A DNA stretch of 64,000 nt from positions 1,488,001-1,552,000 of the forward strand of contig NZ_CP133261.1 in NCBI RefSeq assembly GCF_030931715.1, in the 5' to 3' direction. The DNA comes from Tissierella sp. MB52-C2. GTDB lineage: Bacteria > Bacillota > Clostridia > Tissierellales > Tissierellaceae. Below, piece by piece: positions 58,363 through 64,000 of this stretch (positions are counted from its first letter, which is position 1; every line of letters begins with the position of its first letter). The notes beneath the pieces are model-generated. The model had not been told where the DNA came from and ran no database searches. It worked only from the letters and a program-made list of their open reading frames with translations. The position numbers were made by a program, and so were the translations under genes.

Positions 58363-58410
58363 AATAGAACTAATAAAAGGAATTAATTAATTCCTTTTAT
58401 TAGTTCTATT
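58363..58410. terminator. 48-base perfect palindrome, convergent terminator
   Basis: 24-bp arms (AATAGAACTAATAAAAGGAA plus TTAA, and complement) without a spacer, between yneA and the recombinase gene. It contains the recombinase's last codons and stop. Confidence 0.8.
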
Positions 58411-59361
58411 GGACAGAGGATTGCTTTTAACTGCATCTCTAAGTCTATCATCGTCTATATGGGTATAAATTTGAGTAGTAGATACTGATTCGTGCCCCAA
58501 TAGTTCTTGTAATGCACGTATATCTACGTTTCCATACTTATACATCAAGGTAGCTGCAGTATGCCTCAATTTGTGGGTGGAGTAGATGGAAGGGTCTAAA
58601 CCTGATTTCTCTAAATATCTATCAATCATATGTTGGATAGCTCTGTTGCTCATTCTATTTTTCCTTTTACTTATGAACATAGCTTTCTTATCCTTAGATT
58701 CTTTAGGTCGCACAGCAAGATAATCTTTAATGGCAAATACACAGCCATCGTTTAAGAAAACAGTTCTTTCTTTATTTCCTTTTCCAATAATAGATAGAGT
58801 ATCATTGTCCTTAATTTTATCTATATCTATACTTGCAAGTTCAGAAAGACGAAGTCCACAATTTAAAAATAACATAATAATAGCATAATCTCTTTTTCTG
58901 TATTCTTCATTTTTGTTCTCTAGTACATTATTCAATAGTAATTCCGACTGTTCTAAAGTAAGATAAACAGGATGTCTATTTTCCTTTTTCGGAAATTCTA
59001 AAGCTTCAGCAGGGTTATGGTCAATTAAACTTACCTTAGAATAGAGGTAGTCGAAAAATGATCTAAGTGAAGCAACTTTTCTAGATTTAGTATAATTATT
59101 ATTATCTCTTTTTTTATCGGCATATGAGATATATGCGTGCATATCTTGAATTCTTAATTTACTTATTAAATCTAAATCCACATCTGAAATATCAATCTGG
59201 TCAAATTCAATATCTTGTTCGACTAATCTATATCTTGTTTTAATAAATCTAAAAAAAGTTCTTAGGTCAAAAAAGTATTCTTTTACAGTATTGGGAGAAA
59301 CCCCTTTAATTGTTTCCATATAATTTAAGTAATCCTCAAGAAGTATTGGTATATCATTCAT
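58387..59361 (-). CDS. Xer-type tyrosine recombinase
   Basis: 324 aa; core-binding SAM-like domain (LEDYLNYMETIKGVSPNTVKEY), catalytic domain with CGLRLSEL (Arg), HKLRHTAATLM (His, Arg), LLGHESVSTTQIYTH (His, Tyr). Full-length and intact. May be the XerC partner of the XerD at 16261, or an independent integrase. SD GAGGGAG precedes the ATG on the minus strand. It borders the cassette-like region 61.7-64 kb and has a 20-bp inverted repeat 20 bases upstream. Confidence 0.88.
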   Translation of the reverse strand: MNDIPILLEDYLNYMETIKGVSPNTVKEYFFDLRTFFRFIKTRYRLVEQDIEFDQIDISDVDLDLISKLRIQDMHAYISYADKKRDNNNYTKSRKVASLRSFFDYLYSKVSLIDHNPAEALEFPKKENRHPVYLTLEQSELLLNNVLENKNEEYRKRDYAIIMLFLNCGLRLSELASIDIDKIKDNDTLSIIGKGNKERTVFLNDGCVFAIKDYLAVRPKESKDKKAMFISKRKNRMSNRAIQHMIDRYLEKSGLDPSIYSTHKLRHTAATLMYKYGNVDIRALQELLGHESVSTTQIYTHIDDDRLRDAVKSNPLSNRTNKRN

Positions 59362-59380: not shown

Positions 59381-59422
59381 ATAACATTAGTCACAAAATA
59401 GTTATTTTGTGACTAATGTTAT
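59381..59422. repeat. 20-bp inverted repeat upstream of the recombinase gene
   Basis: Perfect arms ATAACATTAGTCACAAAATA (59381-59400) and complement (59403-59422) around GT. No T-run on the minus side, so not an obvious terminator for that strand. Could be an operator of the recombinase gene, its binding site, or a plus-strand terminator for nothing visible. Confidence 0.6.
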
Positions 59423-60017
59423 TTTACACTAAAATTATCCAAAAATCAATATCAAAAAATTAATTTATTTAAGCAAAAAATAATCGAAAAACTTACTTAT
59501 ATAACAAATTTGAATTTAACCAATGTATTAACTTCATAATTAACCTTTAAAGATTATTCATGTAAATATATTCCTATGGATAATTGAAGCCCTTAAAAAC
59601 CATTCTGAGAGGTCAAAATTTAAGAACTTATCCATTATATAATAGATAAGTTCTTAAATAGACTTTTAATATAATTATTTTATATTATCTACAAACTGAA
59701 AATTTTGTTTTACTGTTCTGTACGGAATACATACAAGAACTACTCTTCAGCTTTGTGAATTTAAAATCCTAATTGGCTGCCCTATTTTATTTTTTTAAAG
59801 TGATGTAGAATATTTTTTAAAATCCAGTTTCACCAAAAAATTAACATAATTATATTATGTATACATTTCTGGCGTTATGACTTTAAGATCTAAATAGTCG
59901 ACATATTATATTTATGTCAACTATTTAGATTAGATAATAGGCCTATGGTTAGATTTTACTGGTTATCCATATAAAATGAATTTTCGTATAATAAACTATT
60001 TAACTGTTCTACAGTTC
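59423..60017. other. non-coding stretch with two hairpins
   Basis: About 600 bases, strongly AT-rich, no plausible gene on either strand. Two hairpins: TTTAAGAACTTATC / complement (59619-59632, 59645-59658) and a 17-bp pair with one mismatch (59888-59904, 59914-59930; core TAAATAGTCGACAT) that pairs better in a minus-strand transcript. Probably decayed DNA. Confidence 0.6.
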
Positions 60018-60145
60018 ATGGAGTTGTTATCATTTTAAAGACAGGTGCTAGTTTAACTTATCCCGCCAAGTTTATGCTTATCGCCAGTATGAATCCTTGT
60101 CCATGTGGTTTTTCTGGGGACCCTCCACATGAATGCACTTGTAGA
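60018..60145 (+). pseudogene. comM: comM (Mg-chelatase-like ATPase) fragment
   Basis: The plus strand reads GASLTYPAKFMLIASMNPCPCG and continues FSGDPPHECTC, an unmistakable piece of YifB/ComM, a helicase-like AAA+ protein for natural transformation. Only about 40 codons survive, with no start, Walker A or C-terminus. It is more GC-rich than its surroundings. It directly abuts the methyltransferase pseudogene from the other strand. Confidence 0.85.
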
Positions 60146-60159
60146 ATATTGGACAAAAC

Positions 60160-60625
60160 TATATAATCATAATGTTTATTTAAATTTAATGAAAAAAAAT
60201 CTCCTTTGACAAATCTTATACTACTTACATCATTAAATTCCTTATATTCCTCTCCAATGTTACAAGGAATACATTTATCAACCACGATTACTTCACAATT
60301 AGGATTAGCCATTAAAATTGCATTAGCCCAATCCACCACTATTCCTTCCAATATCCAAAATATTTGAGTCTTTAAAATCACATATTTTACTTAAGGTATC
60401 TCTGATATCAAAACTAAAAGATCCATTTACATTATCTATAGCTTTTTGTTGTATTTCTGTTGCTACTTGTTTTGATATTTCATCCATAGCATTTTTTATA
60501 TATAAATACTTTTCAATTTTTATATATAAATACTTTTCAATATGATCCTTTCCCACTAGATCTAGCTTTGTATCTTTTATGCTGTTTATTTTCTCATCTA
60601 TCTTACTTAGTATATCTAAAAGCAT
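60160..60625 (-). pseudogene. class I SAM-dependent methyltransferase, frameshifted and truncated
   Basis: Read from 60625: a helical N-terminus, then NILDIGRNSGGLG (SAM motif I) in one frame; near 60330 the reading continues in another frame as NAILMANPNCEVIVVDK...IRFVKGDFFSLNLNKHYDYIVLSNILQ (motifs II-IV). The C-terminal third is replaced by the comM fragment. It also contains a 24-base tandem duplication. Clearly not functional as is. Confidence 0.75.
60493..60540. repeat. 24-base tandem duplication
   Basis: Two identical 24-base units (60493-60516, 60517-60540; unit core ATATAAATACTTTTCAA). In frame within the methyltransferase pseudogene (8-residue repeat IEKYLYIK). Confidence 0.9.
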
Positions 60626-61343: not shown

Positions 61344-61673
61344 CTACACCCCCTTCCTCTCTGCCTCAATCTGCTTCATAACTATATCTATATTAAGCTT
61401 AGTCTTATATATAAACTGCATATTGCTTTCATGTAAAGTCTCTGCTATATCTCTTTTTACTTTTAAATCTGCTATGTTTTCATTCCCTCGACATAGATCA
61501 GATATTATTGTTATTGGTATACCCTCCGTTCTTAATCTTAAGATTTCCTTTGCTAATTCTACTCTATAATCTCTTTCTGCTATTGCCCTATTCTTTACCC
61601 TTTCTCTTATAGCTGTAATTGCTTTGTTTAAATCACTTCTATATTTATTTAATTCTATCTGTAAATCCTGCAT
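61344..61673 (-). CDS. conserved phage-type hypothetical protein
   Basis: 109 aa, mostly helical and charged (LNKYRSDLNKAITAIRERVK...), SD GGGAGGGAGG before the ATG. Directly upstream of the DUF1492 pseudogene (5-base gap), as in Firmicute prophages. Function unknown. It begins 22 bases after a minus-strand terminator, so it may lack a promoter of its own. Confidence 0.65.
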   Translation of the reverse strand: MQDLQIELNKYRSDLNKAITAIRERVKNRAIAERDYRVELAKEILRLRTEGIPITIISDLCRGNENIADLKVKRDIAETLHESNMQFIYKTKLNIDIVMKQIEAERKGV

Positions 61674-61729: not shown

Positions 61730-61772
61730 CTAGAGCCTCTATCTATGATTTAACACTTACGATATCAATAAA

Positions 61773-61788
61773 AATACCGCTATTATCA
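61773..61788. repeat. degenerate copy of the cassette-repeat arm
   Basis: AATACCGCTATTATCA resembles the repeat arm AATACCGTATTATTCA with small changes; it lies at the 3' end of the VOC relic, where a repeat would be expected. Confidence 0.45.
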
Positions 61789-62112
61789 TTTATTTTCTGT
61801 CATCAGTTCCCATCTCATACTAAATTTATCTATTAGAGATACAAAGCAACTGCTGTATGATGTTTCTAAGAACCATACCTCCATCAATTAATATATTGTA
61901 AGCGTTCTTAACATCGCTTGAGCAGTCAAATGTTGAGTTCCTATAACCATTTCTGCATGGTATACATAGTCTCCCTATCTGATAAATATGTTTCTTGGAT
62001 TTGCGTCCTTATAGTGCATAAGTATAATTAGGCTACAATTAAATGCTTTTTGGTATAACTTTAAAGCTTCTTCACAATTACCATTAAAATGATAATTTGG
62101 GGTAACAATCAT
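61786..62112 (-). pseudogene. VOC/PhnB-like protein (glyoxalase fold), decayed
   Basis: Minus-strand ATG 62112 after GGAGG reads MIVTPNYHFNGNCEEALKLY, then QKAFNCSLIILMHYKDA, the usual start of PhnB-like VOC proteins. It is followed by a stop, then YVYHAEMVIGTQHLTA, a frame problem and finally LIDKFSMRWELMTE, which matches the family end (VDKFGISWM...). Start and end are recognisable but the middle is broken. Confidence 0.75.
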
Positions 62113-62169
62113 CTACTATCCTCCTAATACGTAATGTCTTCCTAATCTGATTAATCTAACAACAAAATC

Positions 62170-62195
62170 ATACCATATTATTCATATTTTCAAGA
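62170..62195. repeat. degenerate partial copy of the cassette repeat
   Basis: ATACCATATTATTCATATTTTCAAG resembles the left end ATACCGTATTATTCAATTTTCAAG of the full repeats; it is directly followed by full copy 1. Confidence 0.5.
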
Positions 62196-62208
62196 TAATT
62201 TTATATTT

Positions 62209-62384
62209 AATACCGTATTATTCAATTTTCAAGGTTCAAATTTCACTTTTTATATTTATGTTGCATAAATAGCTTTAGTTACTTAAAGTACAACATAAAA
62301 ATACCGTAAAACTCTTTTCTGAATAATACGGTATTTTGATTAAATATTTTATTTTAATAATTATGGCGTTTTAATATAAATTAT
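62209..62384. repeat. palindromic cassette repeat, copy 1
   Basis: Perfect 16-bp terminal arms AATACCGTATTATTCA (62209-62224) and complement (62320-62335). Inside the right end is a hairpin (ATACCGTA...TACGGTAT, 62300-62335) that, read on the minus strand, is followed by a T-run and ends the neighbouring gene. Similarity with copy 2 continues past the arm (TTGATTAAATATTT, then G-A/G-CGTTT...TATAAAT) to about 62384. Confidence 0.8.
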
Positions 62385-62416
62385 TCATCTTACCCATATA
62401 TAAATCATCATATTGA

Positions 62417-62674
62417 TTAAACTTTATTTTTATTGTTATCCATTACTGCACCTATAACTATTCCCATAAGCATTCCAAATCCAGATCCAAGAGCCAAAAC
62501 CATTGGAAATAAACTATCTCCCATTAACCCAAACACAACTCCAATAACTGCTGCAAATAAACATCCTCCTATTAATCCAACGCCAACCCCAAAACCTACA
62601 TAATGATTATTATCGTTTTCTTGATTTTTATTATTATATGAATTATCTTCATTAATATTGTTTCTCTTAGGCAT
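62417..62674 (-). CDS. small glycine-rich membrane protein
   Basis: 85 aa; Asn-rich polar N-terminus, then two glycine-zipper-like transmembrane segments (VGFGVGVGLIGGCLFAAVIG and MVLALGSGFGMLMGIVIG), basic tail. Function unknown. It lies alone between repeat copies 1 and 2 with its own promoter region (TGCTACAAT-like extended -10 at 62741-62786, minus). It is a complete single-gene unit. Confidence 0.75.
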   Translation of the reverse strand: MPKRNNINEDNSYNNKNQENDNNHYVGFGVGVGLIGGCLFAAVIGVVFGLMGDSLFPMVLALGSGFGMLMGIVIGAVMDNNKNKV

Positions 62675-62740
62675 TTTTACTCAATTCCTCTTCCTTGATT
62701 TTTCTGCACATAATCCCAATACTACGTATTACTAATATAG

Positions 62741-62786
62741 ATATTGTAGCATATGTTTAATAAATATTGTAGTATATGTTTAATGG
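62741..62786 (-). promoter_or_regulatory. duplicated 23-base promoter-like element
   Basis: Two 23-base units (62741-62763, 62764-62786) differing at three positions. On the minus strand each contains TATGCTACAAT or TATACTACAAT, an extended -10. A related TATGCTACAAT lies before the peptidase E gene at about 63820. Confidence 0.55.
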
Positions 62787-62804
62787 TAAATATAACCATT
62801 TTCC

Positions 62805-62955
62805 AATACCGTACTATTCAATTTTCAATGTTCAATCTCTATTTCCAATAATTACTTAAAAGATAAGATAAAAAATACCGCAAAATTCATTCCTGAATAA
62901 TACGGTATTTTGATTAAATATTTAGCTTTTACAACATGACGTTTATTATAAATAT
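62805..62955. repeat. palindromic cassette repeat, copy 2
   Basis: Arms AATACCGTACTATTCA (62805-62820) and TGAATAATACGGTATT (62894-62909), one mismatch. Left end continues ATTTTCAATGTTCAA and right end TTTGATTAAATATTT as in copy 1. Internal minus-strand terminator hairpin at 62873-62909 serves the peptidase E gene. Core length 105 bases versus 127 in copy 1; the centres differ. Confidence 0.8.
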
Positions 62956-63070
62956 TGTGCAAGAAACTTAATGTAGATTATGCTTATACTGTACGCGACC
63001 ATGACCTTGCCTGTTGCAGAAGTTTTGCATAAAGAAATTAATTCAGTTAAGCCATAGCCACTCACCACAA

Positions 63071-63733
63071 CTAAAGCGTCTCATCCAACTTCTGAATCTT
63101 TGAGTGAGAAATTAAATATACATTGCCTAAAATGTCGATTTTGTCTCCCTTTACGCGTACAGCACAATCTTTGTTTGACGCATAAACATTTATTTCTTCT
63201 GATAAAGGAGATAGTTCGCCTTGAATCTGCTCAATGTTATTTTCAAGATCAAAATGAGACAGGACAGAAAAATCGTCAAGGCCGATACCATCGTAAATAG
63301 AGCTTATTTCACCTTTATAGCCAGTGTATTTCGAGCATAACCATTTAGCGGACATGTTTATCGCACCAGCGCTTGTTCCCATCACAACGGCTCTGCTTTT
63401 TTTAATCAAATCCGACAATTCATATTCAATCAAAATACCGCTCTGTTCAACGGTATTTCCACCCAACAAGAAAATGACCGAAGCATTTTGAATTAATTTA
63501 TGAGCCTCTTCCTTCTGTACGCCATAATCAATTAAATGATATTCATCAAACATAATGTTGGCCTGATCAAGCCACGAACGTTCAGTGGCACCAACTTCCT
63601 CATCTTCATGAAGAAATGGATTCGCACTAATCATAACAAGCGATTTTCTATCAGTTATATCCTCATGCAACAACTTAACCAGCTTCTCAGGAAAAATATC
63701 GTTAAACCAACCTAAATAATAGTGAGTTTTCAT
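63071..63733 (-). CDS. peptidase E-like protein (S51, class I glutamine amidotransferase-like)
   Basis: 220 aa; nucleophile serine in VVMGTSAGAINM, FLLGGNTVEQ, and the C-terminal AVRVKGDKIDILGNVYL. S51 enzymes are Asp-dipeptidases or cyanophycinase-like. Intact, with SD GGAGG. More GC-rich and different in codon use from the housekeeping genes, hinting at transfer. It lies alone between repeat copies 2 and 3. Confidence 0.88.
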   Translation of the reverse strand: MKTHYYLGWFNDIFPEKLVKLLHEDITDRKSLVMISANPFLHEDEEVGATERSWLDQANIMFDEYHLIDYGVQKEEAHKLIQNASVIFLLGGNTVEQSGILIEYELSDLIKKSRAVVMGTSAGAINMSAKWLCSKYTGYKGEISSIYDGIGLDDFSVLSHFDLENNIEQIQGELSPLSEEINVYASNKDCAVRVKGDKIDILGNVYLISHSKIQKLDETL

Positions 63734-63871
63734 AAGTACCTCCGTAGTAAAGTTTATATAATATAAATAATCTGTAGTTCGCCTTATTATACGACTACGA
63801 CCTACTTATATGATAATTGTAGCATACATATCATATAACACCAATAAGTTTATGGAAATATTTTACTTTTT
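63734..63871 (-). promoter_or_regulatory. leader/promoter of the peptidase E gene
   Basis: Minus strand: TATGCTACAAT (about 63813-63823) followed by an AT-rich leader and ACGGAGGTACTT before the ATG. No other feature. Confidence 0.5.
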
Positions 63872-63905
63872 AATACCGTATTATTCAGTTTTCAAAGTCC
63901 AATTT
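63872..63905. repeat. palindromic cassette repeat, copy 3 (left end only)
   Basis: AATACCGTATTATTCA identical to copy 1, then GTTTTCAAAGTCCAATTTC, close to the inner part of copy 1. No right arm is visible before the window edge; the next gene ends 12 bases beyond. Confidence 0.7.
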
Positions 63906-63916
63906 CATGTAAATAA

Positions 63917-64000
63917 TTAACTATTCTTTTTAGTATCAATTTTAGCCTTAATCTTACATCTAGGACACACTATTTCTGCTCTCCCCTCAAGTTCAAGAAG
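63917..64000 (-). CDS. Com-like phage zinc protein, C-terminal part (open at right edge)
   Basis: The last 27 codons on the minus strand read LLELEGRAEIVCPRCKIKAK and end at the stop 63917-63919. The pattern KLL...G-AEIKCPRC is typical of Mu-type Com translational activators of phage DNA modification genes. The N-terminal CXXC half lies outside the window. Confidence 0.65.
   Translation of the reverse strand, partial: LLELEGRAEIVCPRCKIKAKIDTKKNS

Follow-up and report, generated by a model that had tools for sequence, protein, structure and literature searches.

Standardised gene cassettes with matched ends in a prophage slot of Tissierella sp. MB52-C2 and other clostridia: candidate phage morons

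Results and Discussion

A cassette array in a decayed prophage

The window, the whole 64,000-nucleotide stretch analysed here, covers C1:1488001-1552000 of the Tissierella sp. MB52-C2 genome (G000) and is taken from a single 3.89-Mb contig. Towards its right-hand end a Com-like gene, a peptidase E gene, a gene for an 85-aa membrane protein, a VOC relic and a phage gene follow one another on the minus strand. The middle three are cassettes, lying in a slot of a decayed prophage, and the array ends at 61.77 kb, ahead of the phrog_1389 gene. The features, in minus-strand order, are as follows.

63920..64000, running past the window to about 64039, minus strand: Com-like zinc-finger gene, a phage gene and the constant left border of the array; it precedes the first A element at several arrays of MB52-C2 and Tissierella sp. 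P1
63872..63901, minus strand: A element 1 (HMM A), boxA-like TGGACTTTGAAAACT and arm TGAATAATACGGTATT
63816..63824, minus strand: extended -10 element TGCTACAAT of the peptidase E cassette, downstream of A element 1
63071..63733, minus strand: gene of cassette 1, peptidase E-like (S51), 220 aa, Pfam Peptidase_S51 E = 3.7e-14
62874..62909, minus strand: B element 1 (HMM B / covariance model R1), terminator hairpin AATACCGTATTATTCAGGAATGAATTTTGCGGTATT and T-run
62835..62873, minus strand: spacer at the junction of cassettes 1 and 2, unlike the P1 spacer at the same junction, though both neighbouring cassettes match
62805..62834, minus strand: A element 2, TGAACATTGAAAATTGAATAGTACGGTATT
62743..62751, minus strand: extended -10 element TGCTACAAT of the 85-aa cassette
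62417..62674, minus strand: gene of cassette 2, glycine-rich membrane protein, 85 aa, without Pfam match
62300..62335, minus strand: B element 2, terminator hairpin
62239..62299, minus strand: spacer with a second inverted repeat, TATGTTG...CAACATA
62209..62238, minus strand: A element 3, TGAACCTTGAAAATTGAATAATACGGTATT
61790..62121, minus strand: cassette 3, decayed VOC-family gene, interrupted; 90% DNA match to the P1 VOC gene (cassette L097:7374-8610)
61770..61790, minus strand: decayed B element 3, of which the 3' arm AGCGGTATTTTT remains
61344..61673, minus strand: phrog_1389 phage gene, conserved, the right border of the slot; the same border is found in L035, L097 and L102

The arm TGAATAATACGGTATT of A element 1 is the exact reverse complement of AATACCGTATTATTCA in B element 1. 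Seven matches to AATACCGTATTATTCA with at most 3 mismatches occur in the window, all at 62169-63887, against 1.66 expected, and none of 100 shuffles gave seven or more. The repeats that an earlier note had described from this DNA are thus present in the array, in excess of the chance expectation. The note had counted four repeat-bordered units; three are cassettes, and the Com-like gene is a border rather than a fourth. Copies of the repeat do stand at the borders in general, the exception being the last B hairpin (61770-61790), which has decayed. The VOC gene was correctly called a relic, being broken in the window; its intact relative in a P1 array encodes 138 aa and matches Pfam 3-dmu-9_3-mt (VOC superfamily). 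The proposed difference in base use holds for the peptidase E gene (37.0% GC, against 29.8% for the window) and not for the other array genes. As the note had it, the two inner genes carry their own TGCTACAAT extended -10 element, an SD-like purine stretch (CGGAGG upstream of the peptidase E gene) and the 3' repeat hairpins with T-runs.

Broken copies of one methyltransferase-like gene flank the decayed prophage, at 60058-60625 and, outside the window, at L032:7373-7693 (window 67373-67693); they are perhaps a duplication, or what is left of an insertion.

Anatomy of the cassettes

Read along the gene, each unit consists of an A element (an rrn-type boxA and a 16-nt arm), an extended -10 promoter, usually one gene, and a B terminator hairpin. 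The A element is boxA plus TGAATAATACGGTATT, with boxA being GAAC[AC]TTGAAAACT in Tissierella and TGTTCTTTGAAAATTG in Clostridium, where C. tunisiense is the species compared below. The boxA of the rrn leader and spacer is GAACATTGAAAACT in the MB52-C2 genome and TTGTTCTTTGAAAATTG in C. tunisiense, and in both genomes the cassette boxA matches that of the host's own rrn operons. The B element has the form AATACCGTATTATTCA-loop-GAAT...ACGGTATTTTT, a hairpin followed by a T-run, with compensatory (both-side) changes in 6 of 12 pairs. Rfam models gave no credible match in the 56-64 kb part of the window.

The motif TGNTAYAAT lies within 120 nt of the A element on the cassette strand at 75 of 114 A sites, mostly 9 or 35-59 nt downstream, compared with 3 on the opposite strand and 2.6 after shuffling. 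There are 105 A-to-B cassettes in the first loci, and open reading frames amount to 19,446 aa on the cassette strand and 184 aa on the opposite strand. Junctions are bounded by inverted arms, beyond which the flanks are conserved toward the gene side. Junction spacers tend to be alike within one array and may differ between genomes even where the flanking cassettes match.

Distribution and cargo

Arrays occur at seven sites in all in the MB52-C2 genome, and their gene sets differ. The 16-bp arm, with at most 1 mismatch, has about 30 copies in this genome, nearly all in seven clusters; the search of the genome and related strains that the earlier note had proposed found copies clustered in arrays rather than scattered. 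An exact degenerate pattern was found in 52 stretches in named genomes of Clostridium, Tissierella, Alkaliphilus, Anaerosolibacter, Maledivibacter, Terrisporobacter and Hathewaya. A covariance model of B matched 5 of 299 genomes sampled phylum-wide, which rules out a general terminator, and the element is restricted to a limited group of genomes. In each of thirteen chosen carrier genomes the model matched 4 to 40 places, and single B copies also lie outside arrays.

Clostridium mobile has a chromosomal array of about 66 kb (L121-L125, C2:488-554 kb), with about 20 B elements, or 26 B-like ones, all on one strand, only 9 A-like elements left, and chromosomal genes as surroundings. Elements were also found on about 35 IMG/VR contigs, with 33 complete cassettes in 26 viral loci. 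Collections of phage records queried with the window array, and of phage and plasmid records queried with single junctions, gave no match; prophages and IMG/VR contigs are therefore the basis of the phage evidence.

The cargo is very diverse: 130 cassette proteins fall into 110 clusters, and 95 of the proteins are singletons. GNAT, CAAX protease, VOC, Nudix, hydrolase, DJ-1 and HTH families are the commonest that could be named. Part of the cargo may be phage defence. The cassette at L054:1242-2039 codes for an abortive-infection protein, Abi_alpha (Pfam E = 1.3e-44), and several cassette proteins match PADLOC profiles. The protein of L088:4680-5591 joins an AraC-type HTH to a Cass2 domain, a domain first named from integron cassettes.

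Movement between sites and species

In the P1 array the peptidase E protein (96% identical) and the 85-aa protein (91% identical) are also encoded side by side. The window and P1 (L097) share this pair and the phage borders, and they differ in the number and order of cassettes, the VOC gene lying downstream of the pair in the window and upstream in P1. Two MB52-C2 prophages, L036 and L037, have flanks 82-91% identical, and carry three cassettes and one, respectively. In genome G063, two single-gene cassettes that stand in separate prophages of MB52-C2 are fused into one two-gene cassette.

C. simiarum, C. hydrogeniformans and C. peptidivorans share a PhzF cassette at 96-98% identity, compared with 72-74% for their recA regions; overall, cassettes 94-98% identical were found across species with recA regions 72-77% identical. 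Such near-identity between diverged species, together with varying content within the same borders, indicates that the cassettes move. The earlier note had asked whether gene content varies between strains while the repeats stay, and its cassette reading stood up to this: repeats are constant, content and order vary between genomes, and the same cassettes are found in differing neighbourhoods and species. Ordinary conserved gene order in one vertically inherited prophage family would account for the adjacency of the peptidase E and 85-aa genes in MB52-C2 and P1, yet it can hardly be the explanation given the reversed position of the VOC gene, the different genes in the seven MB52-C2 arrays, and the share of singletons among the cassette proteins.

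Homologous cassettes from different genomes are similar from boxA or the A arm to the B hairpin or a short motif after it, and the similarity is lost in the spacer. The transferred PhzF cassette ends past the motif downstream of B in three genomes. Its copy in C. peptidivorans (L128:14753-14971) lacks boxA and has its start precisely at the A arm, beside unrelated sequence, possibly a direct view of the left end of the mobile unit. Because of the mosaic ends, the most economical guess is that cassettes are exchanged through their shared ends by homologous recombination, by RecA or phage annealing recombinases. The L128 cassette speaks against recombination through boxA.

Recombinases and recombination sites

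The nearest tyrosine recombinase on the contig of the C. mobile superarray is about 290 kb away, the array contig of C. peptidivorans (G454) has none, and the integrases beside MB52-C2 arrays belong to the prophages. The earlier note had suggested that the Xer-type recombinase at 58387 works the repeats, an idea that is not supported, no such enzyme being linked to the C. mobile or C. peptidivorans (G454) arrays. The gene in question (58387-59361) encodes a tyrosine recombinase of 324 aa, lies across a LysM-type gene from lexA, accounts for one of the genome's six PF00589 matches, and shows no apparent connection with the array. Near-perfect inverted repeats with 20-24 nt per arm surround it (58363-58410, 59381-59422 and 59618-59659) and are probably terminators. 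The junctions differ from the B. subtilis dif site at 9 or more of 28 positions, in a comparison whose Bacillus query also missed the host's own dif.

Integron cassettes, or arrays of the CALIN type, would make the repeats attC sites for an integron integrase. The tandem, like-oriented single-gene units, the very diverse cargo (110 clusters among 130 proteins), integron-like cargo families including the one Cass2 domain protein, array-specific spacers and long chromosomal arrays are all shared with those systems (IntegronFinder 2.0, PMC9024848). Against this, attC R boxes (RYYYAAC/GTTRRRY) at attC distance were found at 0 of 48 junctions (shuffled mean 0.8), promoters and terminators lie within the cassettes (75 of 114 A sites have the extended -10 element), and no integrase stands beside the two large arrays in a search for tyrosine recombinases generally. 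An integrase is absent from CALIN by definition. The hosts are clostridia, and integrons have been reported as nearly absent from Firmicutes (PMC9024848). We hold an integron origin to be highly improbable.

Covariation of the cassette ends

Across 137 cassettes, the A arm covaries with the 5' arm of the B element of the same cassette (z = 7.9, shuffled within group; z = 3.35, p = 0.001, within array). The A and B arms of the same junction showed no covariation in these comparisons (z = 1.1 within group, -0.4 within array). This bears on the MITE proposal of the earlier note, and on the reading that a MITE or terminator repeat is located between genes by chance. Inverted arms do flank the junction, and single B copies do occur outside arrays. 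The arm covaries, however, with the far end of its own cassette and not with its neighbour across the junction, so the unit is the cassette; the conserved flanks beyond the arms face the gene, and homologous cassettes are alike from boxA to the B hairpin and dissimilar in the junction spacer. We consider an origin from such repeats very unlikely.

Full 16-nt complementarity of A and B is found in only 26 of the 137 cassettes. Mismatches of the A:C type number 47 against 73.6 expected and G:U pairs 124 against 149.1, and the stronger depletion of A:C is as for RNA pairing, judging from these counts. The predicted A:B duplex beats the B hairpin in 79 of 90 cassettes (-17.6 vs -13.1 kcal/mol), and conservation within B is higher in the inner 5' arm (1.87 bits) than in the 3' arm (1.46 bits). 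Two cassettes 94% identical, in C. hydrogeniformans (L093:6595-7440) and C. peptidivorans (L129:1838-2630), differ in both end arms, and the arms of each match each other better than they match across cassettes, as if the gene had moved into another end pair. An A element lies upstream of B at 17 of 21 viral B sites, loci that were ascertained by B, whereas two chromosomal arrays, at 28 B sites, keep only 8 (p = 0.0004); counting all six large arrays weakens the contrast to p = 0.03, A being kept in four of the six.

The covariation could also mark the matched ends of a mobile element. The arms would then be matched terminal inverted repeats, and the cassettes non-autonomous units that an unlinked transposase or recombinase moves in trans, with the boxA likeness and the terminator both secondary. 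The A arm and the 5' arm of B form a covarying 16-bp inverted repeat around each gene, the A arm is the precise start of the PhzF cassette in one genome and its end lies past the post-B motif in three, and the 94% identical pair has differently matched arms, all as expected of such units. A transposase or recombinase is, however, absent from all ten larger cassettes examined and unlinked to two large arrays, copies lie in one phage slot and in tandem arrays with no scatter, the cassette boxA matches the host's own rrn boxA variant, and the A:C depletion is RNA-pairing-like. Terminal repeats explain the covariation, but neither the match of boxA to the host rrn nor the fixed slot, and we judge them unlikely, while still the strongest of the alternatives.

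The phage slot and a proposed function

In L037 the gene order is DnaB helicase, Holliday junction resolvase, Com, the cassette, an HNH-like protein, a phrog_36 regulator, the terminase subunits and portal. In viral loci too, the genes ahead of the slot are matches to replication families; beyond it come matches to the late-type regulators phrog_36 (10 members) and phrog_248 (activators) and to HNH and terminase small subunit families. The cassette terminators are thus placed after the early genes and ahead of the late regulator. This link to phage biology, a slot between replication genes and late regulator, goes beyond the earlier note, as does boxA.

On balance we favour the view that these are horizontally moving, standardised moron cassettes of clostridial phages with chromosomal offshoots, whose terminators would insulate in the lysogen and be cancelled on phage read-through. 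This builds on the observed anatomy, slot, promoter and terminator signals, boxA likeness, cross-gene covariation, differences in content and order, and transfer between species; the read-through function we infer from sequence. The simplest function would be insulation in the lysogen combined with antitermination in lytic growth, boxA and arm acting together. In the lysogen, the cassette gene would be on from its own promoter and B would keep the downstream phage genes silent; since this promoter sits downstream of A, its transcripts would lack A and end at B. Phage transcripts entering from the replication genes would include A. BoxA acts through NusB and S10, by which it would here tether the RNA to polymerase; the A arm would then pair with the emerging 5' arm of B, blocking folding of the terminator, and the late regulator would be reached. 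Stacked cassettes would be harmless to the phage, which would explain the co-directional arrays. The rrn boxA of E. coli acts mainly against Rho-dependent and not intrinsic termination, and this preference counts against the read-through reading, as does the incomplete 16-nt complementarity.

Relation to known systems

Phage morons are promoter-gene-terminator insertions in temperate phages. The prophage copies fit this definition as far as sequence signals tell: own promoter and terminator signals are present, and variable insertion between contiguous phage genes is found in L036 compared with L037 and in the window compared with L097. As with morons, the cargo is unrelated to phage growth and lies co-directionally between phage genes. 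Unlike them, the cassettes have ends standardised across genera, stacked arrays, a boxA and a candidate antiterminator arm in every unit, and chromosomal superarrays.

The put RNA of phage HK022 is a cis signal in the phage early operon that forms a double hairpin. Like it, and like rrn and lambda boxA antitermination, the cassettes would place a cis RNA signal upstream of terminators, with an rrn-like boxA; unlike in put, the arm is complementary to the terminator. In Tn916, terminator T1 is paired with the antiterminator RNA canT, one per element, and boxA goes unmentioned (PMC11658703). There too, a terminator insulates the genes of a mobile element and an antiterminator RNA acting in cis releases them, a function that is only proposed for the cassettes; in contrast to the single canT, every cassette has its own signal, boxA plus complementary arm. 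Temperate phages are known for relaxed homologous recombination by Rad52-like recombinases, which exchange prophage segments via short or diverged homology (PMC3945230). The Holliday junction resolvase near the slot of L037 recalls that system, and such recombination may play a role here.

No prior description was found in the open literature searched, which leaves out most subscription journals, so an earlier account is possible; as far as we found, the shared shell, the arrays, the pairing ends and the chromosomal superarrays are new. We are evenly divided on the wider proposal, that clostridia have a gene-capture platform undescribed before, in which genes circulate between phages and chromosomes in a shell with RNA-pairing ends, insulated in the lysogen and no roadblock to the phage, and from which escaped copies build superintegron-like superarrays. 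The end models A and B allow anyone to map cassettes. If true, the proposal would answer how a phage bears several terminator-ended genes upstream of its late regulator without blocking itself. If clostridia do run a cassette economy of their own, a large pool of adaptive genes would be moving unnoticed among them, including acetyltransferases, VOC and Nudix enzymes, proteases and at least one abortive-infection protein.
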